A stretch of DNA of 47,121 nt from an uncultured Bacteroidales bacterium. Its GTDB lineage: Bacteria > Bacteroidota > Bacteroidia > Bacteroidales > Muribaculaceae. Shown here piece by piece: positions 13,403 through 37,156 of the stretch. Position 1 is the stretch's first letter. Every line of letters starts with the position of its first letter. Under the pieces are notes generated by a model that was not told the origin of the DNA, searched no databases, and saw only the letters and a program-made list of their open reading frames with translations. The stretch spans positions 1 through 47,121 of the forward strand of contig CACZVR010000005.1 in NCBI GenBank assembly GCA_902784675.1, in the 5' to 3' direction. The position numbers and the translations under genes were made by a program.

Positions 13403-13408
13403 AATATT

Positions 13409-13503
13409 CAGTTTTTAGGTTTCTAGTCCTTAGTTTCGTCCCTAGTTAGCATCCGCCAATTGCTGACAACTAACAACTAAGGACTACGACGAACTAGAAA
13501 CTA
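13409..13503 (-). repeat. Heptamer-repeat spacer, etfB-etfA
   Basis: On the gene strand, an arm of TAGTCCT TAGTTGT type units precedes the core TTGGCGGATGCTAA (within 13444-13460), and an arm ending AACTAAGGACTAGAAAC leads to the etfA start. The two arms are imperfect inverted repeats. The core is reversed relative to the other spacers. Confidence 0.7.
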
Positions 13504-13506
13504 CTT

Positions 13507-14289
13507 TTAGATAATGTGTTTAACTTTCAGTTGATTAACGATCAGCTCAACAGCCTCCTCGGGAGTCACCTCGTGAACCTCGCCGGGAGCCTTCATGGCC
13601 TTGGGGAATGACTTGAACACCTTGGTGGGCGAGCCAGCGAGACCCAGCTTGCCTTCCTCGACGTCAATCTTGTCGGCACTCCACACCTCGACTTCCTTGT
13701 CATAGGCTTCCATGATGCCACTCACGCTCATGTAGCGAGCGTCAAAGGCTGAAGCGAGCACGGTCAACAGGCACTTGCCCTCGACCTCGAGAACCTGGAT
13801 GCCATCCTCGTTCTCTTTGTCCACTTGCAAGTTACCGTTTTCAAGCACCTTGGCATCAGCAACGTAGGTGATTTGCGGCAGATCGAGGTGCTCGGCGAGC
13901 TCGGGACCCACCTGGGCGGTATCACCATCGATAGCCTGACGACCAGCGATGATAAGGTCATAGTCCAACACGCGGCACAGGCCAGACAATGCATAAGAGG
14001 TTGCCAGGGTGTCGGCACCGGCGAATTTGCGGTCACTCAACAGGATGGCACGGTCAGCACCCATAGCGAGAGCCTCACGCAGCATCACGTCGGCTTGGGG
14101 AGGTCCCATCGAGATAACAGTTACATGGGCACCAAACTGGTCCTTGAGCCTCAAAGCGAGTTCAAGGCCGCCCTTGTCATCGGGGTTCATAATGCTGGGA
14201 ACGCCTTCACGAATCAAAGTACCCTTCACGGGGTCAATCTTGACAACGGTGGTATCGGGAACTTGTTTTACACAAACAATTATATTCAT
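13507..14289 (-). CDS. etfB: Electron transfer flavoprotein subunit beta
   Basis: The protein has 260 residues, normal for EtfB of anaerobic Bcd-Etf systems. It begins MNIIVCVKQVPDTT and contains the nucleotide-binding and partner-binding blocks MNPDDKGGLELAL, MGPPQAD, AMGADRAILLSD and GRQAIDGDTAQVGP. It pairs with EtfA and serves the acyl-CoA dehydrogenase encoded immediately upstream. The leader contains a TTAGGC/CCTAAA heptamer array. Confidence 0.95.
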   Translation of the reverse strand: MNIIVCVKQVPDTTVVKIDPVKGTLIREGVPSIMNPDDKGGLELALRLKDQFGAHVTVISMGPPQADVMLREALAMGADRAILLSDRKFAGADTLATSYALSGLCRVLDYDLIIAGRQAIDGDTAQVGPELAEHLDLPQITYVADAKVLENGNLQVDKENEDGIQVLEVEGKCLLTVLASAFDARYMSVSGIMEAYDKEVEVWSADKIDVEEGKLGLAGSPTKVFKSFPKAMKAPGEVHEVTPEEAVELIVNQLKVKHII

Positions 14290-14306
14290 AATCTTGTTCT
14301 TTATAA

Positions 14307-14379
14307 GGCTTTAGGTTTTAGGTTTTAGGCTTTAGGGAAGCAGATGTCACCTAATGCCTAACGCCTAATGCCTAAGAGC
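14307..14379 (-). repeat. TTAGGCN/CCTAAAN heptamer array, bcd-etfB spacer
   Basis: On the gene strand four TTAGGCN units are followed, after about 18 nt, by four CCTAAAN units. Four TTAGG/CCTAA blocks can pair, giving an imperfect hairpin. The second arm ends about 18 nt before the etfB ATG. Confidence 0.75.
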
Positions 14380-14383
14380 TAGT

Positions 14384-15523
14384 TTATTTGAATAATTGAC
14401 CGGCGATAACCATGCGCTGAACCTCGGATGTACCTTCGTAGATCTCGGTAATCTTGGCGTCACGCATCATACGCTCTACAGGATATTCACGGGTGTAACC
14501 ATAGCCACCGTGGAACTGTACGGCCTTGGTCGTCACTTCCATAGCGGTCTCGGCGGCAAAAAGCTTAGCCATAGCGGCATCGGCACTGTAAGGCAGGTGC
14601 ATGTCTTTCTTCCATGCGGCACTGCGCACGAGCAGACGGGCAGCCTCGATCTTGGTCTTGAGGTCGGCCATCTGGAACTGGGTGTTCTGGAACTTGGCGA
14701 TGGCACGGCCAAACTGCTTACGCTCCTTGGTGTACTTCACCGTCTCGTCCAGAGCGCCCTGAGCGATGCCGAGGGCCTGAGAGGCGATACCGATGCGGCC
14801 ACCATCAAGGGTCATCATAGCAATCTTGAAGCCCTTGCCGAGCTGGCCGAGGAGGTTCTCCTTGGGCACAATGCAGTTTTCAAAAATCAACTCACAGGTA
14901 GCACTGCCGCGGATACCCATCTTCAACTCCTTCTTACCGATGGAGAAGCCAGGCATATCCCTTTCGACGATGAATGCCGAGATGCCCTTGGTGCCCTGAG
15001 CCTTGTCGGTCATGGCCATCACGATGAACACGTGGGCATTGGAAGCGTTGGTAATGAAAATCTTGGAGCCATTGAGTACCCAGTGGTCGCCAGCATCTAC
15101 AGCGGTGGTCTGCTGCATAGCGGCATCGGTACCAGCGTTGGGCTCGGTGAGACCAAAGGCGCCAATCCACTCACCCGAAGCGAGCTTGGGCAAGTATTTC
15201 ATCTTCTGCTCCTCGGTGCCATGCTCCAGGATGGGAGCCATACACAGCGAGGTGTGGGCCGAAAGGACAACACCCGTCGTAGCGCACACGCGGGAAAGTT
15301 CCTCAACAGCCATGATATACATTTGCACGGTACCACCAGCACCGCCATACTGCTTGGGAATAGGAATACCCATCATGCCGAGTTTACCCATCTTTTCGAC
15401 GGTCTCGATCGGGAAGCGTTCCTGCTCATCGATTTCGGCGGCAAGGGGCTTCACCTCGTTCTCTGCAAATGAGCGAACCATCTGCAGGAACAGTTGTTCA
15501 GTCTTAGAATAGCTAAAATCCAT
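14384..15523 (-). CDS. bcd: Acyl-CoA dehydrogenase, probably butyryl-CoA dehydrogenase
   Basis: The protein has 379 residues, typical for short-chain acyl-CoA dehydrogenases. FAD and substrate blocks are visible: FGLTEPNAGTDAA, GSKIFITNA, GYGYTREYPVERMMRDAKI and the active-site IYEGTSEVQR, with catalytic Glu363. In this operon it should reduce crotonyl-CoA to butyryl-CoA with EtfAB as electron partner. The 122-nt leader is a heptamer-repeat quasi-palindrome. Confidence 0.93.
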   Translation of the reverse strand: MDFSYSKTEQLFLQMVRSFAENEVKPLAAEIDEQERFPIETVEKMGKLGMMGIPIPKQYGGAGGTVQMYIMAVEELSRVCATTGVVLSAHTSLCMAPILEHGTEEQKMKYLPKLASGEWIGAFGLTEPNAGTDAAMQQTTAVDAGDHWVLNGSKIFITNASNAHVFIVMAMTDKAQGTKGISAFIVERDMPGFSIGKKELKMGIRGSATCELIFENCIVPKENLLGQLGKGFKIAMMTLDGGRIGIASQALGIAQGALDETVKYTKERKQFGRAIAKFQNTQFQMADLKTKIEAARLLVRSAAWKKDMHLPYSADAAMAKLFAAETAMEVTTKAVQFHGGYGYTREYPVERMMRDAKITEIYEGTSEVQRMVIAGQLFK

Positions 15524-15527
15524 ATCA

Positions 15528-15640
15528 GTTTCTAGTTTCTAGTTTTTAGTCCTTAGTTCATAATCCTCGTTCTTTAGCCTCTCTTTGCCTGATTTGGCGG
15601 ATGCCAACTAGAAACCAGGGACTAAAAACTAAGGACTAAT
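15528..15640 (-). repeat. Heptamer-repeat quasi-palindrome, hbd-bcd spacer
   Basis: On the gene strand the first arm contains TTAGTCCTTAGTT and the last arm AACTAAGGACTAA, which are exact complements. Between them lies the core AGTTGGCATCCGCCAA (15594-15609) and a linker of about 35 nt. Units of ACTAGAA and ACTAAAA continue to within 5 nt of the bcd ATG. Confidence 0.78.
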
Positions 15641-15645
15641 AGTGA

Positions 15646-16482
15646 TTAATACTTGTAGAAGCCTTCTCCCGTCTTGCGGCCAAGCAGACCGGCGCGAACC
15701 ATCTTGCGCAGCAGCGGGTGAGGACGATACTTGGGATCGCCAAACTCGTTATAGAGCACCTCCATGATGGCGAGGTTCACATCGTTACCGATGAGGTCGG
15801 CCAGTGCGAGGGGACCCATGGGATGGTTGGCACCCAGCATCATGCACTTGTCGATGTCCTCGGCGCTGGCAATGCCGTCGGCCAGGATACCAACTGCCTC
15901 GTTGATCATCGGGATGAGAATGCGGTTAACGACAAAACCGGGAGCCTCGTTAACGGGCACGGGAGTCTTGCCGATCTCTGTGGTCAGGTCAATGATGCAC
16001 TTGGCAGTTTCATCGCTGGTGAGCTGGCCCTTGATCACCTCAACGAGCGCCATGCGGTCGGCGGGGTTGAAGAAGTGGCAGCCGATAAACTGAGCGGGAC
16101 GGCTGGTGCAAGCAGCGATCTCGGTAATCGACAATGACGACGAGTTGGTAGCAAAGATGGTCTCGGGCTTGCAAATCTTGTCAAGTTCCATGAACACATC
16201 CTTCTTCAACTGCATGTTCTCGACAGCAGCCTCGATAACGAGATCAGCATCGGCGAAGGTGGCATAGTCGGTCGTGGTGGTGATGTTCGCCATGATGGCA
16301 TCCATCTTCTCCTGGGTGAACTTACCCTTCTCGACGAGCTTGGTGTAACCCTTAGCGATTGAGGCCATAGCCTTGTCTAGACTCTCCTGGGTGCGGCTCT
16401 TCATGACCACGGGCATCTTGGCGGCAAATGCCTTGACGATACCTTTGGCCATCGTACCTGTTCCAATAACACAAATTTTCAT
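15646..16482 (-). CDS. hbd: 3-hydroxybutyryl-CoA dehydrogenase
   Basis: The protein has 278 residues from the ATG at 16482; an upstream in-frame ATG would add 20 residues before the Rossmann motif and is unlikely. The NAD-binding GTGTMAKG motif is at 7-14. The catalytic region has S115/S116 in [11 protein letters not shown] and H136 in GCHFFNP. It interconverts acetoacetyl-CoA and 3-hydroxybutyryl-CoA. With Crt it lets the acetoacetate half of the Kce products be reduced to crotonyl-CoA. Confidence 0.95.
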
Positions 16483-16516
16483 AATCTGTTCTATTATTTT
16501 TATTGATGAATGTTGA

Positions 16517-17293
16517 TTATTCTCCTTTAAAAGTGGCTTCACGTTTGTTCAAGAAAGCGTCCATGCCTTCTTTCTGGTCACTGGTGGCGAAGCATTTGCC
16601 AAAGAGTTTGTTCTCCAAAGCGATGGCACCATCAGCATCCAGGTCATAGCCCTCGTTGATGCTCTGCTTGGCCAGACTGATGGCCACGGGAGCGTTCTTG
16701 AGCATCATGGCAGCCATTTCCATGGCCTTGGCCATCAGTTCCTCGGGCTCATAGGTGGCATTGACAAGACCGATGCGCAGGGCTTCGTCGGCGCGAATCA
16801 CCTTGCCCGTGTAGATCATCTCCTTGGCATAGCCCTGGCCGATGAGTTTGGGCAGGCGATAGGTACCCGAGAATCCGGGGATGATACCCAGACCCACCTC
16901 GGGCTGACCGAACTTGGCCTTCACCGAAGCGATGCGGATGTCACAGGCCATAGCAAGTTCGCAGCCACCACCCAGAGCAAAGCCGTTCACAGCAGCGATG
17001 ACAGGAATGGGCAGCACCTCGATTTTGCGGAAGACCTGAGCGCCCAGGCGACCGAATTCTTCTCCCTGCGGCTCATTGAGGTGAGCCATCTCGGAGATGT
17101 CGGCACCAGCGACAAAGGACTTCTCGCCGTCGCCAGTGATGATGAGCACACGCGTGGCAGCATCCAGTTTGTCAACGAAGTCGCTGATTTCCTTCAGGAT
17201 TGTGGAATTGAGCGCATTCAGCGTCTTGGGCGCTGAAATCTTCATGACGGTGATGCCGTTGTTGTGCTCGACCTTTAAAAAGTTGTATTCCAT
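16517..17293 (-). CDS. crt: Enoyl-CoA hydratase (crotonase)
   Basis: The protein has 258 residues. The crotonase fold shows the oxyanion-hole motifs [10 protein letters not shown] (60-69) and [15 protein letters not shown]. Both catalytic glutamates are present: E112 in GGGCELA and E132 in QPEVGLG. It dehydrates 3-hydroxybutyryl-CoA to crotonyl-CoA. It is 15 nt from the CoA-transferase beta gene and 34 nt from hbd, so the three are tightly packed. Confidence 0.94.
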
Positions 17294-17308
17294 GACAAAG
17301 TGCAGGAA

Positions 17309-17968
17309 TTAAACGTCCATGGGTTTCAAGTCGGGAGAGATGATGAGCTTAGCCTCGGTAGCAGCCTGCACATCCTCGACGGTGAACTCGGGATGGAGCT
17401 CACGCAGCACGATGCCCTCGGGGGTGATGTCCATGACACCCATCTCGGTGATGATCATGTTGACCTGACCAGCAGCGGTGAGGGGCAGAGTGCACTCCTT
17501 CAAAATCTTGGGATTACCCTTCTGGGTGTGTTCCATGGTGAGGATCACACGCTTGGCACCCACAACGAGGTCCATTGCGCCACCCATGCCGGGAGCCATC
17601 TTGCCGGGAATGATCCAGTTGGCGAGGTTACCTTTCTCATCAACCTGCAGTGCGCCCAGGAACGACACGTTCACATGGCCGCCGCGGATGATGGCAAACG
17701 AGGTAGCCGAGTCAAAGGTGCAAGCACCGGGATTCAGTGTGATGGCACCGCCGCCGGCGTTGATAAGGTTTTTGTCTTCCTTGCCTTCCTCGGGTGTGGG
17801 ACCCATACCCATGGCGCCGTTCTCGGTCTGCAATGTCACCGAAACGCCCTCGGGCAGGTAGTTAGGAATCAATGTGGGGATACCAATACCCAGATTCACA
17901 ACATCGCCATCGTGCAACTCTTTGGCAGCACGTTTTGCGATGACTTCTCTCATTTGATATTTATCCAT
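17309..17968 (-). CDS. atoA: CoA-transferase subunit B (butyryl-CoA:acetoacetate/acetate type)
   Basis: The protein has 219 residues of the family I CoA-transferase beta subunit. The catalytic glutamate E49 sits in TENGAMGMG, and [17 protein letters not shown] and [14 protein letters not shown] are typical. With the alpha subunit, encoded nine genes away at 26627-27277, it should move CoA from butyryl-CoA to acetoacetate and release butyrate. The alpha and beta genes are normally adjacent, so their separation here is notable. Confidence 0.9.
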
Positions 17969-18011
17969 AACAAAATAAGGTTTTTGAGATTAATTATATG
18001 TTTTTAAAAAG

Positions 18012-18800
18012 TTATTTCATTCCTCTTTTTACCATCTCTTGCACGACGAATGATGCTACATCGTCGGCATAGGTGTTCATGCCGAAACCGGCATCAAAGC
18101 CCAGCTCCTTGGCCAGCTCGTGGGTGACACGGGCACCACCGCAGCAGCAAATCATCTTGTCACGCAGGCCCTCGGCCTCCATCAGCTCGATGAACTCAGT
18201 CATGTTCTTGATGTGAACGTCCTTCTGGGTCACAGTCTGCGAGACGAGCAACGCATCGGCATGCAGTTCGATGCCCTTGGCGATAAACTCGTCGTTAGGC
18301 ACTTGAGAGCCCAAGTTGTAGGCCTCAATCATCTCGTAGCGTTCCAAGCCATAATGGCCGGCATAGCCTTTCATGTTCATGATGGCATCAATGCCCACGG
18401 TATGCGCATCGGTACCCGTCGAAGCGCCCACGATGACGATTTTGCGACCGATGTTCTCCTTGATGTACTCGTCGGTCTCGTACATGTCCATCGTGTTGCT
18501 CTCCACCTTGGGGACATAGATGGTGCTGTAGTCCACCGTGTGGGTGCAGCTGCCGTAGCAGTTTAAGAAGGTGAAACCTGGTGTCAACTCTTTGTAAAAG
18601 ACCACACTGGGATTCTCCAGACCCATCTTGCGGAGCAACTGCTTGGCGGCCTCAACGGCCTCGGCGCCACAGGGCACGGGCAGGGTGAAGCTCAGCTGCA
18701 CCTTACCGTCATTCATCGTGTCGCCATAGGGCTTTATCTTGGTGAAGTCTAAGGTTTTGTCAAAATCCTTAGCTTCCATGCTATATAATCCTTCGCTCAT
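18012..18800 (-). CDS. kamE: Lysine 5,6-aminomutase beta subunit
   Basis: The protein has 262 residues. The B12-binding motif is DAHTVG (131-136), with H133 as the lower cobalt ligand, and K144 lies in NMKGYAG. These have the same numbers as the cobalt-ligand histidine and PLP-binding lysine of the characterised clostridial enzyme. A Rossmann-like B12 domain follows. With KamD it moves the 6-amino group of beta-lysine (or D-lysine) to C5. It lies 36 nt after kamD. Confidence 0.95.
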   Translation of the reverse strand: MSEGLYSMEAKDFDKTLDFTKIKPYGDTMNDGKVQLSFTLPVPCGAEAVEAAKQLLRKMGLENPSVVFYKELTPGFTFLNCYGSCTHTVDYSTIYVPKVESNTMDMYETDEYIKENIGRKIVIVGASTGTDAHTVGIDAIMNMKGYAGHYGLERYEMIEAYNLGSQVPNDEFIAKGIELHADALLVSQTVTQKDVHIKNMTEFIELMEAEGLRDKMICCCGGARVTHELAKELGFDAGFGMNTYADDVASFVVQEMVKRGMK

Positions 18801-18836
18801 AGTCGTATAGTAACCTTAATTGTGATGTGTTAGTAT

Positions 18837-20393
18837 TTATCTCTTGCCTTTCATCAGTTCCACGAACGGGTTGTAGTAGTTCTCGCCCTTCATGGTTACA
18901 CCCTGCAGGCCCTTACCGCCGTTCTTGGGACGTTTCACGTCACCAAAGATACCCTTTTCAAGCGCGGTGAACAAGCCTTCCTTGGTAATCTCCTCAAGCA
19001 ACTTGATGGTGTTGCCCAACACTTCCTTGACGCGGTTGCGGCAGATACCGCCCTCGACAAACTCCATCTCCTCGCCGATGCTCTTCATGTTGTTGAAGAT
19101 GTACTTGGCGTTCTCGATTGAAAGGTAGCGGTCGCTCATGAACGGGGTGTGGATGGCCTCGGTGGGCATACCCAGCAGTTGGATTCCCTGATGGGTCCAA
19201 ATACCGATCATGTTGAACAGGGCATCCTGAATGTGTCCACGGAAGATGTTGCCCGTCATAAACTTCGTCGGGGGCATATACTTCAGCGTGGCCTTAGGGA
19301 AGATTTCGCGGGTCATCTGCGCCTGAGCCAGCTCCAGCAGGAAGCCGTTCTCAAGCATGGGATCCATCTCGAAGGCATGACCCAAACCCATCTGCTCCTC
19401 GGGCAGACCTGCCATGAGAGCTAGCTGCTCGTTGATGAGATCCGAAGCAAGCACGGTGTGCGCCGCCTCGACAGCGTCGGCAGTGGTCAGGTAGTTATCC
19501 TCACCAGTGTTGATGATGACCCCTGCAAAGCCGTTGATGATGCGGCTCATGTACTGGTCGATGAGGGTGCGTTGCATGTTGATGTCACGGAAGAGGATTC
19601 CGTAGAGAGCATCATTGAGCATCACGTCCAGACCCTCAAAAGCACCCATAATGGCAATCTCGGGCATACACAGACCTGAGCAATAGTTACACAGGCGGAT
19701 GTAACGGCCCTGCTCCTCGCCCACCTCATCGAGCGCCTTGCGCATGATGCGGAAGTTCTCCTGGGTTGCGAAGGTGCCACCAAAGCCCTCGGTAGTTGCG
19801 CCATAAGGCACATAGTCCAACAGGCTCTGACCTGTGGTGCGGATCACTGCGATGACGTCGGCACCTTGACGGGCTCCTGCCTGAGCCTGCACCACGTCCT
19901 CGTAGATGTTACCCGTTGCCACAATGATATAAAGGTAAGGCTTGGGACCCTCACCGATGGTCTCGAGGTAATGCTCGCGACGGGCACGACGGGTGCGGAT
20001 GCGCGCCATGCTTTCGTCCACGACGGGTTGCAAGGCATCTGCAATCTGCTTGGGGTCGCGCGTGACCACCTTGGTGATGTCCAGTTCACCTGTCGCCACC
20101 TTCTCGGCAATCTGCTGCGGGTTGAGCCCTGTCTGAATCATGGCATTGGCGATGAAGAACAAGGCACCCTCGTTCAACACGCCCTTGTCTTTCAAGGCTT
20201 CCACCACCACGTTGGGCAGTGGCACATCGTTGTCATCAACACCGTCGATGCCCATCAAGCGGCACAGCGTGCGCTCAACAGCCACCGTCGTGTATTGCTC
20301 CACAAAGGACTGAACGTCCTCGGCGATGCCTTTGGCAAGACCTCTGGCATACTCAACTTTTTCAAAATCTAGTCCTAACTTGCTCTTTTGCAT
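18837..20393 (-). CDS. kamD: Lysine 5,6-aminomutase alpha subunit
   Basis: The protein has 518 residues, the usual length. It forms the TIM-barrel catalytic subunit that binds PLP and the 5'-deoxyadenosyl group. Recognisable stretches are MQKSKLGLDFEKVEYAR, the region ARIRTRRARREHYLET, GEGPKPYLYIIVATGNI and the C-terminal KNGGKGLQGV. With KamE it makes 3,5-diaminohexanoate from beta-lysine. The leader holds two CTATATA-type heptamers directly before the start. Confidence 0.95.
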   Translation of the reverse strand: MQKSKLGLDFEKVEYARGLAKGIAEDVQSFVEQYTTVAVERTLCRLMGIDGVDDNDVPLPNVVVEALKDKGVLNEGALFFIANAMIQTGLNPQQIAEKVATGELDITKVVTRDPKQIADALQPVVDESMARIRTRRARREHYLETIGEGPKPYLYIIVATGNIYEDVVQAQAGARQGADVIAVIRTTGQSLLDYVPYGATTEGFGGTFATQENFRIMRKALDEVGEEQGRYIRLCNYCSGLCMPEIAIMGAFEGLDVMLNDALYGILFRDINMQRTLIDQYMSRIINGFAGVIINTGEDNYLTTADAVEAAHTVLASDLINEQLALMAGLPEEQMGLGHAFEMDPMLENGFLLELAQAQMTREIFPKATLKYMPPTKFMTGNIFRGHIQDALFNMIGIWTHQGIQLLGMPTEAIHTPFMSDRYLSIENAKYIFNNMKSIGEEMEFVEGGICRNRVKEVLGNTIKLLEEITKEGLFTALEKGIFGDVKRPKNGGKGLQGVTMKGENYYNPFVELMKGKR

Positions 20394-20414
20394 AGTGTAT
20401 ATAGTATATAGTGT
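20394..20414 (-). repeat. Short ACTATAT heptamer repeat before kamD
   Basis: The gene strand reads two ACTATAT units and a partial third immediately before the kamD ATG. The period is again 7 nt, but these units carry no stop codon. Confidence 0.55.
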
Positions 20415-20418
20415 GATG

Positions 20419-22784: not shown

Positions 22785-22807
22785 TGCAAGAAAACGAGTC
22801 AGTCACC

Positions 22808-22837
22808 GTGGAGATGTGCATAAAGGCACATCTCCAC
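22808..22837 (-). promoter_or_regulatory. Perfect hairpin between kamA and kamB
   Basis: GTGGAGATGTGC and GCACATCTCCAC form a 12-bp perfect stem with a 6-nt loop. Outside it TCAGT and ACTGA can extend the pairing. There is no T-tract on the minus strand, so it is not a normal terminator. An RNA-processing or stability element within the operon is more likely. Confidence 0.7.
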
Positions 22838-22854
22838 AGCACTGACATCTTATT

Positions 22855-26111: not shown

Positions 26112-26113
26112 TT

Positions 26114-26206
26114 TAGTTTCTAGTCCTTAGTTTCTAGTCCTTAGTTTAGTCATCAGTTTTCTGTTGGCGGATGCCAACTCCTAACTTCTAACTTCTAATT
26201 CCTAAT
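26114..26206 (-). repeat. Heptamer-repeat quasi-palindrome, kal-kce spacer
   Basis: On the gene strand the spacer starts with TTAGAAG and TTAGGAG units, passes the perfect core AGTTGGCATCCGCCAAC (26163-26179), and ends with alternating ACTAAGG and ACTAGAA units directly before the kce ATG. It fills almost the whole gap after the kal stop codon. Confidence 0.8.
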
Positions 26207-26593: not shown

Positions 26594-26595
26594 AT

Positions 26596-26629
26596 TAGTT
26601 TCTAGTCCTTAGTTATGAGTCCCTAGTTA
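26596..26629 (-). repeat. Heptamer repeats filling the CoA-transferase alpha-kal gap
   Basis: The gene strand reads TAACTAG, GGACTCA, TAACTAA, GGACTAG, AAACTAA in unbroken 7-nt register from the upstream stop codon to the kal ATG. No palindromic core is present. Confidence 0.75.
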
Positions 26630-27567: not shown

Positions 27568-29291
<1,724 letters not shown>

Positions 29292-29294
29292 AAA

Positions 29295-29791: not shown

Positions 29792-29817
29792 CACCGCAAA
29801 AAACAGTATTATTTATA

Positions 29818-31338
29818 ATGAAGACGATTATTTCAAGAATAGCTCTTGCCGCAGTGGCAGCGCTGTTACTCACCGCTTGCGGCGGCAACGAGACAACTTA
29901 CCAGTACCGGACCGATTACTTGCCCGTTCAGCTTGTGGGCAGTGAGAAGTGGTCAATACTCGACGTGAACACCGGCGAAGTGGTGGCCAAGGACGCGTTT
30001 GACAGCGCACCGTCGCCCATCGTGGCAGGCATGTTCTATGTGAGGAACAGCGACGGCAGCTACGACTACTATGATGTGAGCGCCCCGACGACTCCGGTGG
30101 CAGGTCACTTCGGCAGTGTGACAGCCTTCAGCGACGACGGCGTGGCTGTGTGCAGCAAGGTGGGTGGTCCGTTGCTCGTGATTGACCGCAAGGGTCAGGT
30201 ATTGAAAGAGTTACCCAAGGAGGTGTCACAGTGCTCGATGTTCGCTCGCGGCATGGCGATGTTCCAGAACGACAACGGTCAGTGGGGCTACATCAATGCC
30301 AGTGGTGACACCATCGTCCCCGCCGTCTACAGCAGTGCCAACCTGTTCATGTACAACGATTATGCTCTGGTCATCGACGAGCATCAGCCCAATGACAGCG
30401 CCTTGAGTTTTACAATCATTGACAAAACCGGAAAGGTGAAATTCACGTCCAACACCAGCATTTACCAGCCCATCCAGCCCTACTACATCAATGGTGTGCT
30501 GCCGGTGATGAAGGGTGACACCATCGTTTGCCTTAACGAGGATGGCAAGGAGGTAGCCAATCCCATCAACGATCAAGAGAAAGTGGAGAAAGGCGGCTAT
30601 ACCGACTTCTCACGCACGCCTAACGGCAACTATATCGTCACCAAGGACAAGAAGACGGGCATGGTGGACAAGGACAACAATATCCTTATCCCCCTCGAGC
30701 ATGACAACCTCATCGACATCAACGGTGAGCGACTGATCGCTGTGGACAGCACAATCTTCAGCATCATCGATGCCAACGGCAAAGCGGTGGGCAGTGTGAA
30801 GTTCGAGAATGCCCACGTGAGCGAGGATAACCCTTATGCTGCCCGCGGTTACATCAACAACGACATGGTGGCAGCCTCAATCATGATGATGTTTGACGAG
30901 ACGAGCGCATGTGGTGCCAATGCATCGACAACCCTCATGGACATGAACAACCTGGTGGGCACCAACGCCCGCCTGTATGCCGGCAGCAACACACTCATTC
31001 TGCCCCAGGGTCCATACATCATCCAATATGTGTTCGACCGTGAGGTGGCAACCGCCAACGCCGACAGCACCTCGGCCAGCTTCAACTATGACGCCAAGGT
31101 GAACCGTGTCATCATTTCGCTTGACGTGAATCATTGCCCGCCCGTCACCGAGCCCGCCATCGTTAACAAGGTGGAGAGCCGCTTGGGCACCAAGGGCTTT
31201 GTGTTCGCCCGCGACGGCATCTTCTGCAGTGACTATCTGACCGCATTGACGATGGGCTATGACAAGGGTATCATGAACCTCACCTATTACATGCACTTCA
31301 ACGAGTCAGTTCCTCAAGACAAGAAAAAGAGGAATTGA
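29818..31338 (+). CDS. WG-repeat-containing lipoprotein
   Basis: The protein has 506 residues with a lipoprotein signal peptide ending LLLTAC (Cys21). The mature part contains degenerate WG/KWG-type beta repeats, best seen in GQWGYINASGDTIVPAVYSS and TGMVDKDNNILIPLEHDN. Such repeats build surface or periplasmic beta structures of unknown function in Bacteroidetes. It lies upstream of queD on the same strand, separated by a 7-nt-repeat leader. No enzymatic motif was seen. Confidence 0.8.
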   Translation: MKTIISRIALAAVAALLLTACGGNETTYQYRTDYLPVQLVGSEKWSILDVNTGEVVAKDAFDSAPSPIVAGMFYVRNSDGSYDYYDVSAPTTPVAGHFGSVTAFSDDGVAVCSKVGGPLLVIDRKGQVLKELPKEVSQCSMFARGMAMFQNDNGQWGYINASGDTIVPAVYSSANLFMYNDYALVIDEHQPNDSALSFTIIDKTGKVKFTSNTSIYQPIQPYYINGVLPVMKGDTIVCLNEDGKEVANPINDQEKVEKGGYTDFSRTPNGNYIVTKDKKTGMVDKDNNILIPLEHDNLIDINGERLIAVDSTIFSIIDANGKAVGSVKFENAHVSEDNPYAARGYINNDMVAASIMMMFDETSACGANASTTLMDMNNLVGTNARLYAGSNTLILPQGPYIIQYVFDREVATANADSTSASFNYDAKVNRVIISLDVNHCPPVTEPAIVNKVESRLGTKGFVFARDGIFCSDYLTALTMGYDKGIMNLTYYMHFNESVPQDKKKRN

Positions 31339-31366
31339 AAACTAAAGACCAAGGACTAAAAACAAA
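31337..31366 (+). repeat. Heptamer repeats before queD
   Basis: Units AAAACTA, AAGACCA, AGGACTA and AAAACAA run in register from the end of the WG gene to 4 nt before the queD ATG. Confidence 0.6.
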
Positions 31367-31370
31367 TAAT

Positions 31371-31706: not shown

Positions 31707-31707
31707 G

Positions 31708-31783
31708 AGTCAGAAGTTAGGAGTGAGGAGTTGACATCCGCCTCCTTTACAACTAAGGACTAAGGACTAGGGACTAAGGACTA
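31708..31783 (+). repeat. Heptamer-repeat spacer, queD-queE
   Basis: GTTAGGA and GTGAGGA units lead into the core AGTTGACATCCGCC (31729-31742). Then GGACTAA, GGACTAG, GGACTAA and GGACTAT run in exact 7-nt register to 2 nt before the queE ATG. The AAGGA in the last unit could act as a ribosome-binding site. Confidence 0.75.
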
Positions 31784-31785
31784 TA

Positions 31786-32376
31786 ATGTACAAAGTTAAC
31801 GAAATCTTCCATTCGCTGCAGGGCGAGGGCTACAATACAGGCACCGCCAGCGTGTTTATCAGGCTGAGCGGTTGCAATCTGCATTGCGCCTTCTGCGACA
31901 CTCGTCACGAGGAGGGCACGATGATGTCGCTGCCCGAAATCGTCGAGCAAGTGATGTGCTACCCCAAGGCCCCGCTCATCGTGCTCACGGGCGGCGAGCC
32001 GTCGTTGTGGATTGACGAGGATTTCGTGATGGGGCTCAAACAGATGACGGGCAAGCGCATCGCCATCGAGACCAACGGCACCCGTCCCCTGCCCCACGGC
32101 ATCGACTGGGTGACCCTGTCGCCCAAGACGGGCCTCGGCGACAGCGGCGACTTGCCAGTGGTGCTCACCCATTGTGACGAGTTGAAGGTGGTGTATCTGG
32201 GTCAGGACCTGTCACAATATGACAACATCACTGCCGACCACCGCTACCTGCAGCCCTGCTGGGTGAGCAACGAAAGCGACCGCAAGCGCAACATGCTGGC
32301 CACCGTCCAGGCCGTGCTCGACCACCCCGACTGGCGCCTGTCGCTGCAGACCCACCGCATCCTCAACATCCGCTAG
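31786..32376 (+). CDS. queE: 7-carboxy-7-deazaguanine synthase QueE
   Basis: The protein has 196 residues, a short radical-SAM enzyme. The cluster cysteines are C30, C34 and C37 (CNLHCAFC), a CxxxCxxC motif. The N-terminus VNEIFHSLQGEG and the SAM-binding VLTGGEPSL are typical of QueE. It converts the QueD product to 7-carboxy-7-deazaguanine. The next enzymes, QueC and QueF, are encoded about 2 kb away on the opposite strand. Confidence 0.95.
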   Translation: MYKVNEIFHSLQGEGYNTGTASVFIRLSGCNLHCAFCDTRHEEGTMMSLPEIVEQVMCYPKAPLIVLTGGEPSLWIDEDFVMGLKQMTGKRIAIETNGTRPLPHGIDWVTLSPKTGLGDSGDLPVVLTHCDELKVVYLGQDLSQYDNITADHRYLQPCWVSNESDRKRNMLATVQAVLDHPDWRLSLQTHRILNIR

Positions 32377-32392
32377 TAAACTGTCACCGTCT

Positions 32393-32411
32393 GTTGCGTT
32401 GTCAACGCAAC
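32393..32411. repeat. Perfect 19-bp palindrome after queE
   Basis: GTTGCGTTG and CAACGCAAC are exact complements around one central T. It lies 16 nt after the queE stop and before the terminator hairpin. Confidence 0.6.
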
Positions 32412-32432
32412 AAACTGAACTCAAATAACAAG

Positions 32433-32466
32433 CGCCCGCACTCCTTTGGCTGGAATGCGGGCGTTT
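32433..32466. terminator. Terminator between queE and fabD
   Basis: CGCCCGCA pairs with TGCGGGCG around a 15-nt loop, followed by TTT on the plus strand and TTGTTA on the minus strand. It probably serves both convergent units. Confidence 0.72.
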
Positions 32467-32467
32467 C

Positions 32468-32496
32468 TCTAAACTCTAAACCCTACACGCTAAACT
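32468..32496. repeat. TCTAAAC heptamer repeat after fabD
   Basis: Units TCTAAAC, TCTAAAC, CCTACAC and GCTAAAC follow each other in 7-nt register between the terminator and the fabD stop codon. This copy is not next to a start codon. Confidence 0.5.
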
Positions 32497-32514
32497 GCGA
32501 GCAGGGCGAGCATA

Positions 32515-33393
32515 TTACTGGCGACCTGACAGGACAACCTCGCGGCTAGTCTTGGCAATGAGGCCCTGGAGGACCTTGCCCGGGCCCAGTTCCTCGGCCT
32601 CGGTCATGCCGTCGGCAACCATGTTGGCAACGATGTGGCTCCAGCGAACGGGAGCGGTGAGCTGTTGCAGCAGGTTGGCCTTGATTTCGGCAGGATCGGT
32701 GTGGGGCTTAGCGTCCACATCCTGGTAGATGGGGCAAACGGGAGCCGAGAAGTCGGCAGCCTCGATAGCCTTGGCCAGTTCGGCGCGGGCAGGCTCCATC
32801 AGGGGCGAGTGGAAAGCACCACCCACCTTGAGGGGCAACGCGCGGCGAGCGCCAGCCTCCTTGAATTTCTCACAAGCGGCCTCGATAGCGGCAATCTCAC
32901 CCGAGATGACCACCTGACCGGGGCAGTTATAGTTGGCGGGAACACAGATGCCGTCGATAGTGGCACAAATTTCCTCCACCTTAGCGTCGTCCATACCGAT
33001 GATGGCAGCCATCGTCGAGGGAGCAGCCTCACAAGCCTTCTGCATAGCCAGGGCGCGTGCTTCGACCAGCTTCAAGCCCTGCTCAAAGGGCAGTGCGCCA
33101 GCGGCAACCAGTGCCGAGAACTCTCCCAGCGAGTGACCGGCAACCATGTCGGGCTTGAAGTCGTCGCCCATGGTGAGCGCGAGAATAACCGAGTGCAGGA
33201 AAACGGCAGGCTGGGTGACCTTGGTCTGCTTCAGGTCGTCCTCGGTGCCTTCAAACATGAGGTCGGTGATGCGGAATCCCAGCACCTCATTGGCTTTTTC
33301 AAACAATTCTTTGGCCTGGGGATTGTTGTCGTACAGGTCCTTGCCCATACCCACAAACTGTGCGCCCTGACCGGGGAATACGAATGCTTTCAT
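32515..33393 (-). CDS. fabD: Malonyl-CoA:ACP transacylase
   Basis: The protein has 292 residues. The start is FPGQGAQFVGMG, the nucleophile is S88 in GHSLGE and the catalytic histidine is H195 in GAFHSPLM. It loads malonyl groups on acyl carrier protein for fatty-acid synthesis. It is a single gene with an exact -7 box (33451-33458) and lies between the queE terminator and the FGE-like lipoprotein. Confidence 0.96.
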   Translation of the reverse strand: MKAFVFPGQGAQFVGMGKDLYDNNPQAKELFEKANEVLGFRITDLMFEGTEDDLKQTKVTQPAVFLHSVILALTMGDDFKPDMVAGHSLGEFSALVAAGALPFEQGLKLVEARALAMQKACEAAPSTMAAIIGMDDAKVEEICATIDGICVPANYNCPGQVVISGEIAAIEAACEKFKEAGARRALPLKVGGAFHSPLMEPARAELAKAIEAADFSAPVCPIYQDVDAKPHTDPAEIKANLLQQLTAPVRWSHIVANMVADGMTEAEELGPGKVLQGLIAKTSREVVLSGRQ

Positions 33394-33450
33394 TACTTAA
33401 TTCTTTCTATTTTTATTGTTGTTTATGGAAATTTTTCTTTAATGCGGCTG

Positions 33451-33458
33451 CAAAGGTA
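33451..33458 (-). promoter_or_regulatory. -7 box of fabD
   Basis: The minus strand reads TACCTTTG, a perfect -7 element, 57 nt before the fabD ATG. The region where -33 would lie is occupied by AGATAAN-type heptamers. Confidence 0.65.
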
Positions 33459-33465
33459 GTACTTT

Positions 33466-33576
33466 TTTAGATAATAGATATAAAGATAAGAGATAAAAGA
33501 TGCTTTTTTCATCGTCATTCGACGAATACGCATCTCTTATCTCTTCTCTTTTATCTCTTAACAAACAAGGTATTTG
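33466..33576. repeat. AGATAAN heptamer inverted repeat upstream of fabD
   Basis: Units AGATAAT, AGATATA, AAGATAA, GAGATAA and AAGATGC face GCATCTC, TTATCTC, TTCTCTT and TTATCTC. AAGAGATAAAAGATGC pairs with its counterpart with one mismatch. The loop contains an inner hairpin, TCGTC/GACGA. Confidence 0.7.
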
Positions 33577-33586
33577 GTAGACATCA

Positions 33587-33637
33587 TTTAGTGATTGGCA
33601 TGGGCGGCAAAAGCACCGCCCGAGCCAAACCACTAAA
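33587..33637. terminator. Large hairpin downstream of the FGE-like gene
   Basis: TTTAGTG pairs with CACTAAA, TTGGC with GCCAA, and GGGCGG with CCGCCC around a CAAAAGCA loop. There is no T-tract on the minus strand, so it may act as a terminator or 3'-end stabiliser for the gene ending at 33664. Confidence 0.5.
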
Positions 33638-33663
33638 TCACGTTGAATTGACGAGGAATAAGA

Positions 33664-34482
33664 CTAAAGAGCGAGTCGCAATCCAATACAGTCGACCGTG
33701 CTCGTCGGGTCGTAGCCGACGCGTAACGACACACGGCAGTTGTAGGCGTGGTTGAGCCAACTGCCACCACGGAACACGCGGCCATAGCCCGTTGAAGGAC
33801 CGACAGGGTTGGTCTGCGCATCACTGCTGTAACTGCCATACCTGTCCTGGCACCACTCAAACACGTTGCCGCTCATGTCATACAGACCCAATTCGTTAGG
33901 GGCTTTTGTGGCAACTGTTTGTGTTGTGCCATATTCTTCATTATGTGAGGGAATATTAAACCAATACCACGCCACATCATCAGGGTTGTTGCTACCCGAG
34001 TATTTGTAGCCCTGGCTCCGGTTACCGCCGCGGGCTGCAAACTCCCATTCAGCCTCGGTAGGCAGGCGGAACGTCTTACCTGTCAATTGGTTCAACTTGG
34101 TGATAAACGTCTGGCAATCGTTCCATGAGACGAACTCTACAGGACGCTGAAGGTTAGTGTCGTAATTGTTACGACTACTAAAGTAGCTTGGGTTGCTACC
34201 CATCACGGCCTGCCACAAGGCCTGCGTCACCTCGGTCTGTCCGATGCAGTAACTCGAGAGCGTCACCTCGTGGGCGGGCTGTTCGACATCGAAGGCATCA
34301 CTTTCCTGTTCGGCAGTCATGCCCATCGTGAAGGTGCCGCCCTCTATCGCCACCATATTGAACGTCACGCCGTTCACGATAAAGGTTTCGGCGGGATTCA
34401 CGGGTTCATCCTTTCCGCATGACGTGGAAACTACTGTCATCAGAATCAACACAAATAAAATTGAACTAATTTTTTTCATCAT
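33664..34482 (-). CDS. SUMF1/FGE-like domain lipoprotein
   Basis: The protein has about 272 residues; the ATGs at 34482 and 34479 are both possible starts. The lipoprotein signal ends STSC. The rest is a formylglycine-generating-enzyme-like fold: F.MVAIEGGTFTMG, IGQTEVTQALWQAVMG, PVEFVSWNDCQTF, FRLPTEAEWEFAARGG, GNVFEWCQD and RVFRGGSWLN. In Bacteroidetes such lipoproteins are usually not sulfatase activators but structural or unknown. It is 18 nt after queC, so it may be transcribed with queF and queC. Confidence 0.88.
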   Translation of the reverse strand: MMKKISSILFVLILMTVVSTSCGKDEPVNPAETFIVNGVTFNMVAIEGGTFTMGMTAEQESDAFDVEQPAHEVTLSSYCIGQTEVTQALWQAVMGSNPSYFSSRNNYDTNLQRPVEFVSWNDCQTFITKLNQLTGKTFRLPTEAEWEFAARGGNRSQGYKYSGSNNPDDVAWYWFNIPSHNEEYGTTQTVATKAPNELGLYDMSGNVFEWCQDRYGSYSSDAQTNPVGPSTGYGRVFRGGSWLNHAYNCRVSLRVGYDPTSTVDCIGLRLAL

Positions 34483-34503
34483 CAATTCGTTTTATCTGTT
34501 ATC

Positions 34504-35160
34504 TTATACCAAATATTCTGTGGGATCGTCGATGCCGGCTTCGCGCAGGGCTTGGCGACGCTCGGTGCAGGTGCCGCAGGTGCCGCAGTGTTTCTCCCCG
34601 CCCTTGTAGCAGGAGTAGGTCTCGCTGTAGTCCAGTCCCAGGGCAGCACCATGTCGCGCGATGTCGGCTTTGCTCAAGTCGGTATAAGGCGCATAGACCT
34701 TGACACCCTCATAGGTGCCCGTCATCATGGCCGTGCTCATGGCCTCGATAAAAGGTGAACGGCAGTCGGGATAGATGGTGTGATCGCCGGCATGGTTGGC
34801 AATCATCACGCGCTTGAGACCGTTGCTCTCGGCGATGCCGCAGGCAATAGCCAGCATAATGCCATTGCGGAACGGCACCACGGTGGATTTCATGTTCTCG
34901 TCGTTGTAGTTGCCGTCGGGGATGGCATCGGCACTCTCGAGCAGGGCGCTCTTGAAGTACTTGTGCATGAAGTCCAGGGGAATGATCAGATGCTTAATGC
35001 CCAAACGCTCGCAATGCATGATGGCGCAACGGCGCTCACGGCCGTTCTGGGTGCTGCCATAGTCAAAGGTGATGGCCATGGCAATCTCGTCCTTGTACTC
35101 ATAGAGCATGGTCGTTGAATCCATGCCGCCCGAGGTGATGATAACCGCGTCTTTAGCCAT
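34504..35160 (-). CDS. queC: 7-cyano-7-deazaguanine synthase QueC
   Basis: The protein has 218 residues. The PP-loop is SGGMDSTTMLYEY near the N-terminus, and the C-terminal zinc site is CYKGGEKHCGTCGTC. It makes preQ0 from 7-carboxy-7-deazaguanine, ATP and ammonia. It starts 2 nt after the queF stop codon, so the two are co-transcribed from the promoter before queF. Confidence 0.96.
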   Translation of the reverse strand: MAKDAVIITSGGMDSTTMLYEYKDEIAMAITFDYGSTQNGRERRCAIMHCERLGIKHLIIPLDFMHKYFKSALLESADAIPDGNYNDENMKSTVVPFRNGIMLAIACGIAESNGLKRVMIANHAGDHTIYPDCRSPFIEAMSTAMMTGTYEGVKVYAPYTDLSKADIARHGAALGLDYSETYSCYKGGEKHCGTCGTCTERRQALREAGIDDPTEYLV

Positions 35161-35162
35161 AA

Positions 35163-35633
35163 TCAGTCGTTGTGGAAATTAGCGATGAGACGAGCACGCA
35201 CCATGTCCTGATGCTCACGGTCGCCATGGTTGGCAAACGGCTTGATGCTAATGCCGCCACGCGGGTTGAACAGGCCGATGACCTCAATATATTTGGGATC
35301 CATGAGCTTGATCAGGTCCTTCATGATGATGTTCACACAATCCTCATGGAAGTCGCCGTGGTTGCGGAAACTGAACAGGTAAAGCTTCAGGCTCTTGCTC
35401 TCGACCATGCGCACGCGCGGGATGTAATTGATGATGATGTGGCCGAAGTCGGGTTGACCCGTCTTGGGGCATAACGACGTGAACTCGGGACAATCGAGCG
35501 TCACCACATATTCGTTCTCGGGGTGCTTGTTCTCGAAGGTCTCAAGCACGTCGGGACGGTAGTCGAACTCATATTGCGTGCCCTGGTTGCCCAGCAGCGT
35601 CACGCCTTCCAGTTCTTGTTCGGTTCTAGACAT
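35163..35633 (-). CDS. queF: NADPH-dependent 7-cyano-7-deazaguanine reductase QueF
   Basis: The protein has 156 residues from the ATG at 35633; an upstream in-frame start at 35675 would lie on the -7 box and is rejected. The catalytic C55 ([11 protein letters not shown]) and D62 have the same numbers as in the well-studied short QueF type, and VESKSLKLY is the QueF signature. It reduces preQ0 to preQ1. Confidence 0.95.
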
Positions 35634-35663
35634 AATTTCTATCAGTTTTTGTATTCTTGTCTG

Positions 35664-35671
35664 CAAAGGTA
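35664..35671 (-). promoter_or_regulatory. -7 box of queF-queC
   Basis: The minus strand reads TACCTTTG, a perfect -7 element, 30 nt before the queF ATG. The short leader leaves no room for a preQ1 riboswitch. Confidence 0.62.
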
Positions 35672-35710
35672 GCAAAAAAACAGCATGTGCCCACCATCAA
35701 TGGCTCGCAA

Positions 35711-36421
35711 TCATTGATTCAGCAACACATCCAGGGCAAAACGGGCCGCAATGTCCCCTTGTGGCTTCATGCCGTCAAGACTGAGCAAAGCGGCACTCCT
35801 GACAACAGGGTCAACATCATCGCTGCAGTTGGTGAGCAAGTGGCGGCTATAGGCCACAGTGAACTCGGGGTGACCCTGAAAAGTGATTACCTGATGTCCT
35901 ATCCTGAAGGACTCATTCTCGCAGAAATCGCTGGTGGCACACAACTCGGCATCTTGCGGCAATGCCACCACTTGGTCATGGTGACTGTAGAACAGTCGCA
36001 TCTCCTGTCCAGGAAAATAAGTCTTCATGTCGCGGTCTATCACACGAGAAGCACGCACCCCGACACCGAATCCGCCAGCGAATTGCCTCACCGCGCCACC
36101 CAGCGCCCTCGCAATCGCCTGATGCCCGAAACAGACACCCATCAAACGAGCGCCACGCACATAGGCTTTTTCAATCCATTGCAGCAGGGCGACAATCCAG
36201 GGTTTGTCATCATAGGCAGCGTCAAGGCTGCCCGGCACCAGGTAAATCTCATCGGCATTGATGACCGAAGGCAATTCGCCTTGCCATGTCTGGAACACAC
36301 GATAATTGACCTGCTCACCGATGCCGACAAACAAGTCCATGAACAATGACTCGTAGTTGGGAATGAAATCAGGGAGACGCCCTGGAAAGGTGTCACACAA
36401 CAGGATGTTGACCCGGGTCAT
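35711..36421 (-). CDS. Class I glutamine amidotransferase-like protein
   Basis: The protein has 236 residues with a GATase1 fold: the nucleophile C97 in GVCFGHQ, and H184 and E186 in GHPEF. The VPGSLDAAYDD segment resembles stand-alone amidotransferases of the GuaA-N/YfeJ or gamma-glutamyl hydrolase-like type. The acceptor is unknown. Its ATG overlaps the HD gene stop (ATGA), so it is coupled to that gene. Confidence 0.82.
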   Translation of the reverse strand: MTRVNILLCDTFPGRLPDFIPNYESLFMDLFVGIGEQVNYRVFQTWQGELPSVINADEIYLVPGSLDAAYDDKPWIVALLQWIEKAYVRGARLMGVCFGHQAIARALGGAVRQFAGGFGVGVRASRVIDRDMKTYFPGQEMRLFYSHHDQVVALPQDAELCATSDFCENESFRIGHQVITFQGHPEFTVAYSRHLLTNCSDDVDPVVRSAALLSLDGMKPQGDIAARFALDVLLNQ

Positions 36422-37050
36422 AACTCGTCAAGTTCCTCGCCTGTGCGTTCCATGATGCTGGCGGCAAGGCCGTCGGCCGTCTGGACGATGGTCACCAGCG
36501 GATAGAGCTTGCGGGCAGCGTCATAGTTGCGCACGTCCTCATAGCTGTTCTGGTTCACGCCCCATGCACCCATGTGCCAGCGTATGGCGAGCATCTCATC
36601 ATCATTGAGCATCAACCCACTGCACAACAGCAGGGCCAATGACTTCTCGCCATGCCCCATGGGAAAGCCTTTGTAGGTGATTTTGTAACCCTCGGCATCT
36701 TCCCAAATGCCCAGCGCGTTCTTGCGCTTCTTGACCGTGCGTTTATAGATATCGCACTTGCACACGTCATGCAGCAAGCTGGCCAAAATGATGCTCTCGC
36801 GCTTTACTTCATGTTCCAAGCTCGGCTCAACCGTTTTCATTGCTTCCCACACGGCCAGTGCAGCCTGGCAGGTGTTGAGGGAATGACGTGCCAGTCCGCC
36901 CTCGACATTCAAGTGGTGTCCGGCCGAGGCGGGAGCGGTAAAAAAGCCCCACTCCTCGAGGTCACCTATCACATCCTCGATGCCGTCACGCCCAGTCGAA
37001 CGCAGCAGCTCGAGTATCTCTTCCTTACAATTCTTATCGCTGGTTTTCAT
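36418..37050 (-). CDS. HD domain protein (probable phosphohydrolase)
   Basis: The protein has 210 residues. The metal site comprises H56 (GGLARHSL), H94-D95 (SLLHDVCKCD) and a later histidine in MGHGEKS or RWHMGAWG. HD proteins cleave phosphate mono- or diesters, often nucleotides. It overlaps the glutamine amidotransferase by 4 nt. The leader contains a heptamer-repeat spacer after the ABC transporter ATPase gene. Confidence 0.83.
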   Translation of the reverse strand: MKTSDKNCKEEILELLRSTGRDGIEDVIGDLEEWGFFTAPASAGHHLNVEGGLARHSLNTCQAALAVWEAMKTVEPSLEHEVKRESIILASLLHDVCKCDIYKRTVKKRKNALGIWEDAEGYKITYKGFPMGHGEKSLALLLCSGLMLNDDEMLAIRWHMGAWGVNQNSYEDVRNYDAARKLYPLVTIVQTADGLAASIMERTGEELDEL

Positions 37051-37051
37051 T

Positions 37052-37156
37052 ATTTAGTTTTTTAGTTTTTAGTCCCTAGTTGTCGTGCACGCGCGGATGA
37101 AACGGACGAAACGAATGGAACAGACAGAGCAGATGCCAACTGTTCACTATTAACTG
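37052..37156 (-). repeat. Heptamer-repeat spacer, mlaF-HD gene
   Basis: On the gene strand AACAGTT and AATAGTG units precede the core AGTTGGCATCTGC (37129-37141). A linker with degenerate CGTTTCG/TCCGTTT units follows, then ACTAGGG, ACTAAAA and ACTAAAA units up to the ATG. Confidence 0.65.

Follow-up and report, generated by a model that had tools for sequence, protein, structure and literature searches.

Heptanucleotide tandem arrays between genes are known from filamentous cyanobacteria as short tandemly repeated repetitive (STRR) sequences, and enterobacteria carry dispersed palindromes between the genes of operons (repetitive extragenic palindromes and bacterial interspersed mosaic elements, REP/BIME), whose protection of the upstream message is taken here as a model. 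The subject of this work is a set of degenerate 7-nt repeat arrays in the intergenic spacers of an uncultured member of the Muribaculaceae (Bacteroidales), analyzed in a stretch of 47,121 nt (contig CACZVR010000005.1, hereafter the window) which is part of a 2.70 Mb assembly of 131 contigs. Two heptamer systems in print come closest. Direct repeats of TAACTGA are described in Beggiatoaceae, cyanobacteria and some Bacteroidetes, with stop codons noted in all frames; the heptamers occur in five Bacteroidetes, one of which has them mostly ahead of starts and, in a single case, reversed behind a stop (MacGregor, 2015; PMC4679880). The GGGNATC heptamers of Xanthomonas and Nostoc lie between aligned genes and are under-represented in coding and divergent positions; their G-rich strand is sense up to 50 bp past stops and antisense in the 50 bp ahead of starts, inverted pairs occur in Xanthomonas (70 and 75 cases), four copies are preferred, and a quadruplex needs four consecutive G-tracts of three (Rehm, 2015; PMC4692102).

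Intergenic heptamers, their placement and the inverted pairs of Xanthomonas are therefore already known (PMC4679880, PMC4692102). The window arrays resemble the GGGNATC repeats in their placement after stops and before starts, their scarcity between divergent genes, a length that varies by species and their unrelated neighbor genes; they differ from that single quadruplex-capable G-rich unit, as described there (PMC4692102), in that their sequence dialects are many, their G runs are short, some cassettes have a core, and dialects are exchanged at an orthologous site. Four consecutive G-tracts of three were found in none of the window arrays as read, no separate quadruplex scan having been run. 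With the TAACTGA repeats they share heptamers directly before starts, unrelated genes and a patchy occurrence among relatives, whereas that paper (PMC4679880) gives one favored unit, related heptamers that are rarely repeated and no predicted hairpin, and here the units are degenerate, the arms face each other and there are several dialects. A TAACTGA-type unit is not dominant in the genome of the window (14 CTGA matches vs 25 in the control; the window units are ACTAAGG, CCTAAAN and GTTAGRA), and CTGATAA, a cyclic form of TAACTGA, is present in congeners, with tandem TAACTGA-type units for example in G078 and G081. The likeness to cyanobacterial heptamers drawn in a preliminary description of this DNA stands in part, that to STRR, which are also intergenic heptamer tandem arrays, by description only and not by sequence; its statement that nothing of the kind was described in Bacteroidales holds narrowly, as TAACTGA heptamers of five Bacteroidetes are in print (PMC4679880). 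Unlike REP/BIME, the arrays have arms of 7-nt repeats, no constant palindrome and no clear link to a Y1 transposase. Facing arms that form a hairpin, a shared core and the replacement of dialects at the same site go beyond the preliminary description; neither dialect exchange at one kept hairpin site nor a multi-dialect core cassette was found in open-licence PMC text, a search that leaves aside subscription papers and preprints.

The heptamer periodicity of the spacers is real. A strict lag-7 array was defined by at least 12 of 14 matches in spacers of at least 21 nt; genes were called with our own codon-score script, and start positions may be off because of this. Lag-7 arrays were present in 8 of 37 window spacers and arrays at lags 4-6 and 8-12 in none, while 200 local shuffles of the same spacers gave a mean of 0.03 array spacers and a maximum of 1. 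The whole-genome scan for 7-periodic spacers that had been set as a check came out far above its control: the pattern CTAAN3CTAAN3CTAA matched 425 times (231+194) in 2.70 Mb, vs 13 (8+5) for the reversed pattern. Lags 7 and 14 dominate the same-strand spacers both in sample 1 of the window's own genome, chosen partly around matches (28 and 24), and in 80 named loci (104 and 59), the next commonest lags being 9 (8 spacers) and 8 (17), respectively; local shuffles of these same-strand spacers gave 0 at every lag, and 392 kb of coding sequence held no three-unit array of the CTAANNN/TTAGNNN forms. It should be noted that the comparison set has one genome per species and that counts over the named loci (L) and the congener genomes (G) are not independent because the two sets overlap (G009=L029, G082=L033, G017=L040, G019=L032), and that compared pairs also share species. 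Tandem Repeats Finder returned a period of 7 or of 14 for eight of the spacers listed earlier and missed only the ninth, 31337-31366. By the lag-7 test six of the nine pass, 37051-37156 falls one match short (11/14), and 26594-26626 and about 31339-31370 fail and are arrays by eye; two arrays outside that list lie within 32377-32514 and 33394-33663. The units are 7 nt long as first listed, but are better written as CTAANNN / TTAGNNN with CTAG, CTGA and CTTA variants, and several of the array spacers are palindromic, some with a central GGCATCCGC.

The placement of the units relative to genes is constant. In transcript sense, G/T-rich TTAGNNN units follow the stop codon and A/C-rich CTAANNN units stand ahead of the next start. 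Over 0.83 Mb of the own genome, two-unit CTRR matches lay nearer the next start in 75 of 95 cases (nearer the stop in 18) and two-unit YYAG matches nearer the previous stop in 114 of 137, which confirms both the constant orientation to the next gene and the reverse-complement units behind the previous stop that had been proposed. Across the sampled genomes G exceeds C in 105 of 127 stop-proximal arrays (15 reverse, 7 equal), and still in 39 of 47 where the next start is more than 100 nt off; C exceeds G in 75 of 109 start-proximal arrays (24 reverse, 10 equal). Between convergent genes, read outward from the nearest stop, G exceeds C in 22 of 25 arrays, which indicates that the G-first, C-last polarity belongs to the cassette itself, and not only to the keeping open of starts. 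The GC skew after stops is +0.30 (own genome), +0.15 (named loci) and +0.24 (congeners) in array spacers vs -0.05, +0.06 and -0.05 in short array-free spacers; in a small sample from other families (20 spacers) array-free spacers likewise reach up to +0.24. Enrichment between same-strand genes was found in the named loci, where strict arrays occupy 89/681 tandem, 3/61 convergent and 4/93 divergent spacers of 21-600 nt. In sample 2 of the own genome, not chosen by matches, the figures for the same lengths are 10/174, 1/40 and 1/42, and over all spacer lengths 3/48 divergent and 10/251 tandem. The view of the arrays as a general operon-spacer element beside unrelated genes is supported.

The spacer which carries most of the argument is the following.

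15524..15645, minus strand: between 3-hydroxybutyryl-CoA dehydrogenase and acyl-CoA dehydrogenase genes; facing ACTAAGG-type arms; predicted hairpin, minimum free energy (MFE) -39.3, z -4.73; core GGCATCCGC at 15596-15607 (plus strand).

Its orthologues were surveyed in 22 loci (the window and L023-L043), and the spacer was located in 19 of them, L031, L036 and L042 having no located site. In L039 it is only 23 nt long; the remaining 18 of 18 are array-bearing and all are predicted to fold with z < -2. Five dialects, assigned by eye, are distributed as follows.

ACTAAGG: window, L023, L024 (without core), L032, L040.
CCTAAAG: L029, L033.
ACTGAAA: L027, L028, L030, L038.
ACTTAAA or ACTAACA: L025, L026, L034, L041, L043.
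CCCC...GGGG-loop type: L035, L037; arms resemble those of the ACTAAGG dialect.

Spacer identity is 0.60 between dialects (125 pairs), vs 0.54 for shuffled spacers and 0.77 within a dialect (28 pairs), and the flanks are alike for both groups of pairs (0.86/0.93 and 0.84/0.95). Two sister pairs with full support differ in dialect: L040/L041 (flanks 0.974/0.952, spacer 0.59) and L033/L035 (flanks 0.971/0.978, spacer 0.60). In the predicted folds the main stem starts 3 to 9 bases past the stop and at least the last 8 bases ahead of the start are unpaired. Downstream of the stems the 18 loci have A-rich sequence, unlike an intrinsic terminator with its G+C-rich hairpin and T run, although no terminator scan was run. 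Within a dialect the arms are too alike to inform on covariation. That a predicted hairpin is kept at this site despite different repeats suggests that its shape matters more than its letters.

Predicted hairpin strength depends on the site, and not merely on the presence of an array. Among array-bearing spacers MFE is below -25 kcal/mol in 16 of 18 at 15524 vs 16 of 45 at four other sites (3/12, 4/14, 2/12, and 7/7 at 17969; Fisher p 0.0002, two sites with a single array spacer being excluded), and a Kruskal test of MFE over sites gives p 4e-6; both tests treat related species as independent. Four other operon sites never reach z < -2 (0/20, 0/10, 0/17, 0/20), and the spacer 22785-22854 and its orthologues, which hold no heptads and have much changed in sequence, are predicted to form a strong hairpin between cistrons in every one of 21 loci (z < -2), so that folding goes with the site. 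The two arms belong together in part of the spacers: in 64 spacers with arrays in both halves, from 33 genomes, own halves pair at -22.4 kcal/mol vs -15.9 for swapped halves (z -7.5), and permuting the order of units costs 2.1 kcal/mol (p 2e-4).

The other array spacers of the window are listed below. Of the neighboring genes, 3-keto-5-aminohexanoate cleavage enzyme, 3-aminobutyryl-CoA ammonia lyase, GroEL, GroES and QueD are named from NCBIfam matches above the curated cut-off; the electron-transfer, acyl-CoA dehydrogenase, 3-hydroxybutyryl-CoA dehydrogenase and QueE names lie below it and are approximate. Rfam gave no match in the window at gathering score.

13403..13506, minus strand: between two electron-transfer flavoprotein subunit genes; lag-7 array with facing ACTAAGG-type arms; predicted hairpin, MFE -34.2, z -4.43; core variant with 1 mismatch at 13446-13457.
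14290..14383, minus strand: lag-7 array with 5' arm TTAGGCN and 3' arm CCTAAAN; predicted hairpin, MFE -29.6, z -3.87; cassette copies dispersed in congeners.
26112..26206, minus strand: 3-aminobutyryl-CoA ammonia lyase / 3-keto-5-aminohexanoate cleavage enzyme (kal-kce); lag-7 array with 5' arm GTTAGRA, core at 26166-26177 and 3' arm ACTARRR of another dialect; varies among species; MFE -20.6, z -3.94.
26594..26626, minus strand: short spacer, F arm alone (ACTARRR units); no hairpin, z -0.79.
29209..29294, minus strand: groES-groEL; lag-7 array with 5' arm TTAGGCT and 3' units ACTGAAA, unlike dialects; weak fold, z -1.72.
31339..31370, plus strand: short spacer ahead of queD; few F-type units, seen by eye.
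31707..31785, plus strand: queD-queE; lag-7 array with purine-rich 5' part, core variant at 31731-31742 and 3' arm ACTAAGG; no significant hairpin, z -0.51.
32467..32496, no strand: CTCTAAA heptad array in the convergent spacer 32377-32514.
33469..33501 and 33532..33560, no strand: AGATAAA and ATCTCTT heptad arrays in the spacer 33394-33663.
37051..37156, minus strand: ACTARRR units ahead of the start, lag-7 11/14; no hairpin, z 0.12.

The core links arrays of different sequence. GGCATCCGC has 29 copies in 84 kb of spacer vs 10 in 745 kb of coding sequence and is common to different arm dialects; in 15 tandem spacers with this core, R units lie upstream in 11, and 6 of these also have F units downstream. 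Relatives of the spacer 14290-14383 at least 79% identical to it occur at no fewer than 14 places in G009, and of nine that were examined seven carry the core unchanged and the other two a variant form. The window spacer 14290-14383 is matched at 77-84% identity by three spacers in a row within the same operon in G082, and the spacer that G009 has at the 15524 position shares 85% identity with the 14290 spacer of the window and 57% with its 15524 spacer. When a G009 cassette was used as a query together with its flanks, the cassette part alone matched many further places in congeners, among the matches listed. TTAGGNGGCATCCGC is present in 16 of 61 congeners and has no control match. These dispersed copies indicate that cassettes spread between spacers. 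The core cassettes have no constant ends, the arms switching dialect around the same core, and an empty site with a duplication was not found in one attempt, in G009, where there was no close synteny.

Two further observations concern cassettes. A second recurrent loop, near AGGCGATA and with ACTTAAA-type arms, is seen in several species (L221, L228, L112, and L025, L026 and L034 at the 15524 site). Among the orthologues of window spacer 17969-18011, an insert of about 90-220 nt stands directly after the stop in 7 of 21 loci (L023, L024, L028, L030, L031, L040, L041); it consists of a hairpin and TTTAGAG or GATTAGT heptads and is followed by the leader common to the 14 other loci. A second exact GAATGAAATAA lies at its far end in five of the seven, like a target-site duplication, with a changed copy in L041 and none visible in L031. 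Relatives of this insert are found elsewhere in congeners.

Array content varies widely between relatives, and copy number differs between species. CTAA matches across the congeners range from 0 to 614; CTGA arrays dominate some of them, e.g., 462 in G074, though the reversed control for CTGA is itself raised by ACTAAGG arrays, and G003, G012 and G029 have neither CTAA nor CTGA arrays. Outside the genus there are few CTAA matches, often no more than in the control, and stretches from other families, several of which were picked around matches, carry heptads of other sequence. Loci L028 and L030 differ in length by 14 nt at two spacers.

Our preferred reading, which we hold tentatively and put somewhat short of an even chance, is that intercistronic RNA hairpins have the arrays as their arms, or as remnants of arms, and that these hairpins are selected at some sites and remade by slippage, inverted copying and cassette dispersal. 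A G/T-rich heptad arm (TTAGNNN here) would start a few bases past the stop codon, a loop, in some cassettes GGCATCCGC, would come next, and an A/C-rich arm (CTAANNN) would run toward the next start and leave the last bases unpaired. Selection at such sites would act on the hairpin structure, its letters hardly mattering, and the stem may be kept at some sites because, past the stop, it most likely shields the upstream message at its 3' end and the leader of the next gene stays open. The 7-nt unit would then be the trace of the process which builds the arms, i.e., slippage, inverted copying and the copying of cassettes between spacers. Slippage may alter arm length by whole units, as between L028 and L030, copying through the hairpin or between spacers may renew the arms, and where a spacer has just one arm, or two arms that are unlike, the cassette would have decayed or been half replaced.

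Several results weigh against this reading. Only four of the eight window spacers that were folded are strong (13403, 14290, 15524, 26112), which rules out a hairpin in every spacer; 29209 is weak, and 26594, 31707 and 37051 are not above shuffles. The kal-kce spacer (26112) is array-bearing in 12 of 22 loci and measures 6, 10 and 17 nt in three, and at site 17969, where all 7 carriers are likewise strong, 14 of the 21 loci are empty. Array-free spacers also pair their own halves better (z -14.1; 120 of 547 sampled), so that pairing is not special to heptads: hairpins occur commonly between genes, and heptads offer one of the ways to build them. Within the own genome the swap test gives a weak result (n=19, p 0.024), and array and array-free spacers have nearly the same profile of paired probability around stops and starts. 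Length differences between orthologous array pairs show no excess of multiples of 7 (28/179), which speaks against slippage as the sole process. Median identity of array vs array-free spacers is 0.39 vs 0.93 where the flanks are 95-97% identical (12 and 12 pairs), 0.83 vs 0.98 at 97% or more (9 and 9 pairs) and 0.57 vs 0.65 at 93-95% (25 and 32 pairs), a suggestive sign, from few and non-independent pairs, that array spacers may turn over faster.

Among the alternatives neutral turnover survives best, although we consider it somewhat unlikely. Slippage and template switching at quasi-palindromes would make the inverted arrays, selection would only purge harm to promoters, coding sequence and starts, and hairpins would be a by-product. 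Such a process is consistent with a preference for 7 nt without a common unit, the range of 0 to 614 matches between congeners, near pairs that differ by 14 nt (L028/L030, two spacers), the nearly empty spacers of some species, the many spacers without a hairpin and the lower frequency of arrays per nt in divergent spacers. It sits less well with the site-specific hairpin strength among array spacers and the 18 of 18 predicted hairpins in five dialects at 15524, nor does the protection of starts explain the polarity of 22 of 25 arrays between convergent genes; the lack of a multiple-of-7 excess argues against slippage alone here as well.

It is improbable that the arrays are a dispersed mobile or copied element, like miniature inverted-repeat transposable elements (MITE) or REP, with heptad arms whose sites and orientation are the survivors of selection. 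The many copies within a single genome of a cassette that has the core and both arms, the distribution of TTAGGNGGCATCCGC and the 17969-18011 insert with its second GAATGAAATAA copy in five of seven carriers would all fit an element of this kind. No transposase could be tied to the repeats, however: PF01797 (Y1_Tnp) is found in 55 of 61 congeners and its correlation with repeat counts is weak (Spearman 0.31, p 0.06, 37 genomes), and mobilization by REP-associated tyrosine transposases (RAYT) is not favored. The lack of constant ends, with arms that change dialect around one core, and the one unsuccessful attempt to find empty core-cassette sites with duplications also count against it.

We give little credence to binding sites for an RNA- or DNA-binding protein, or to G-quadruplex formers, as proposed for the TAACTGA and GGGNATC repeats; the placement is as in those papers, but at one site sister species differ in the unit, and the absence of four G-tracts of three from the window arrays as read tells against a quadruplex. 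That the arrays, 7 not being a multiple of 3, are all-frame stop codons which halt stray ribosomes ahead of the next start is very improbable: of 68 arrays that lie no more than 20 nt from a start, each unit being entered once per genome, 0.90 contain a sense stop vs 0.56 expected from permuted units, sense-only arrays outnumber antisense-only ones 18 to 4, and all-frame stops are noted for TAACTGA (MacGregor, 2015; PMC4679880), but the bias shrinks to 8 vs 3 of 39 when every unit enters the count a single time, the antisense strand is enriched too (0.69), and 5' arms of the ACTGAAA dialect (TCAGTTT) carry no stop. Mimicry of a Shine-Dalgarno sequence by the AAGGA of ACTAAGG was also rejected, other dialects being without AAGGA by reading.

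Heptamer repeats have so far been reported motif by motif, each with its own tentative function. If the arrays are exchangeable hairpin arms, and position, polarity and pairing outlast an exchange of the unit, explanations tied to single motifs are pitched at the wrong level; the reason for heptamers between bacterial genes would become testable with reporters and orthologous spacers, and a structure kept through sequence replacement would be one that sequence-homology searches miss. A wider claim, possible though doubtful, is that Bacteroidales keep sequence-free intercistronic hairpins, of which position, polarity and stem are inherited while the whole stem-loop is swapped for a different heptad cassette, leaving sister species with unrelated letters at a site, and that the heptamers of Beggiatoaceae, Xanthomonas and Nostoc are single dialects of a general phenomenon and not specific regulatory or quadruplex motifs.

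Facing heptad arms of unrelated sequence were seen in other Bacteroidales (L042, L047, L054, L071, L073, L075, L084, L097, L100), with examples such as AGAAGAC/GTCTTCT, CGAGACT/AGTCCCG, CTTCTGG/CCAGTAG and TTTAGGG/CCCTAAA. The own genome also holds a second class of spacer arrays, of period 9, with the units TCCAGTCCG, CCGTTTCGT and CGGATTACG (e.g., L008:7553-7603, L015:8980-9027, L020:14459-14491). In L027, L040 and L041, at the orthologue of the window spacer 26594-26626, a period-9 array, CTAGAGTAT, with the same CTAG tetramer, replaces period 7.

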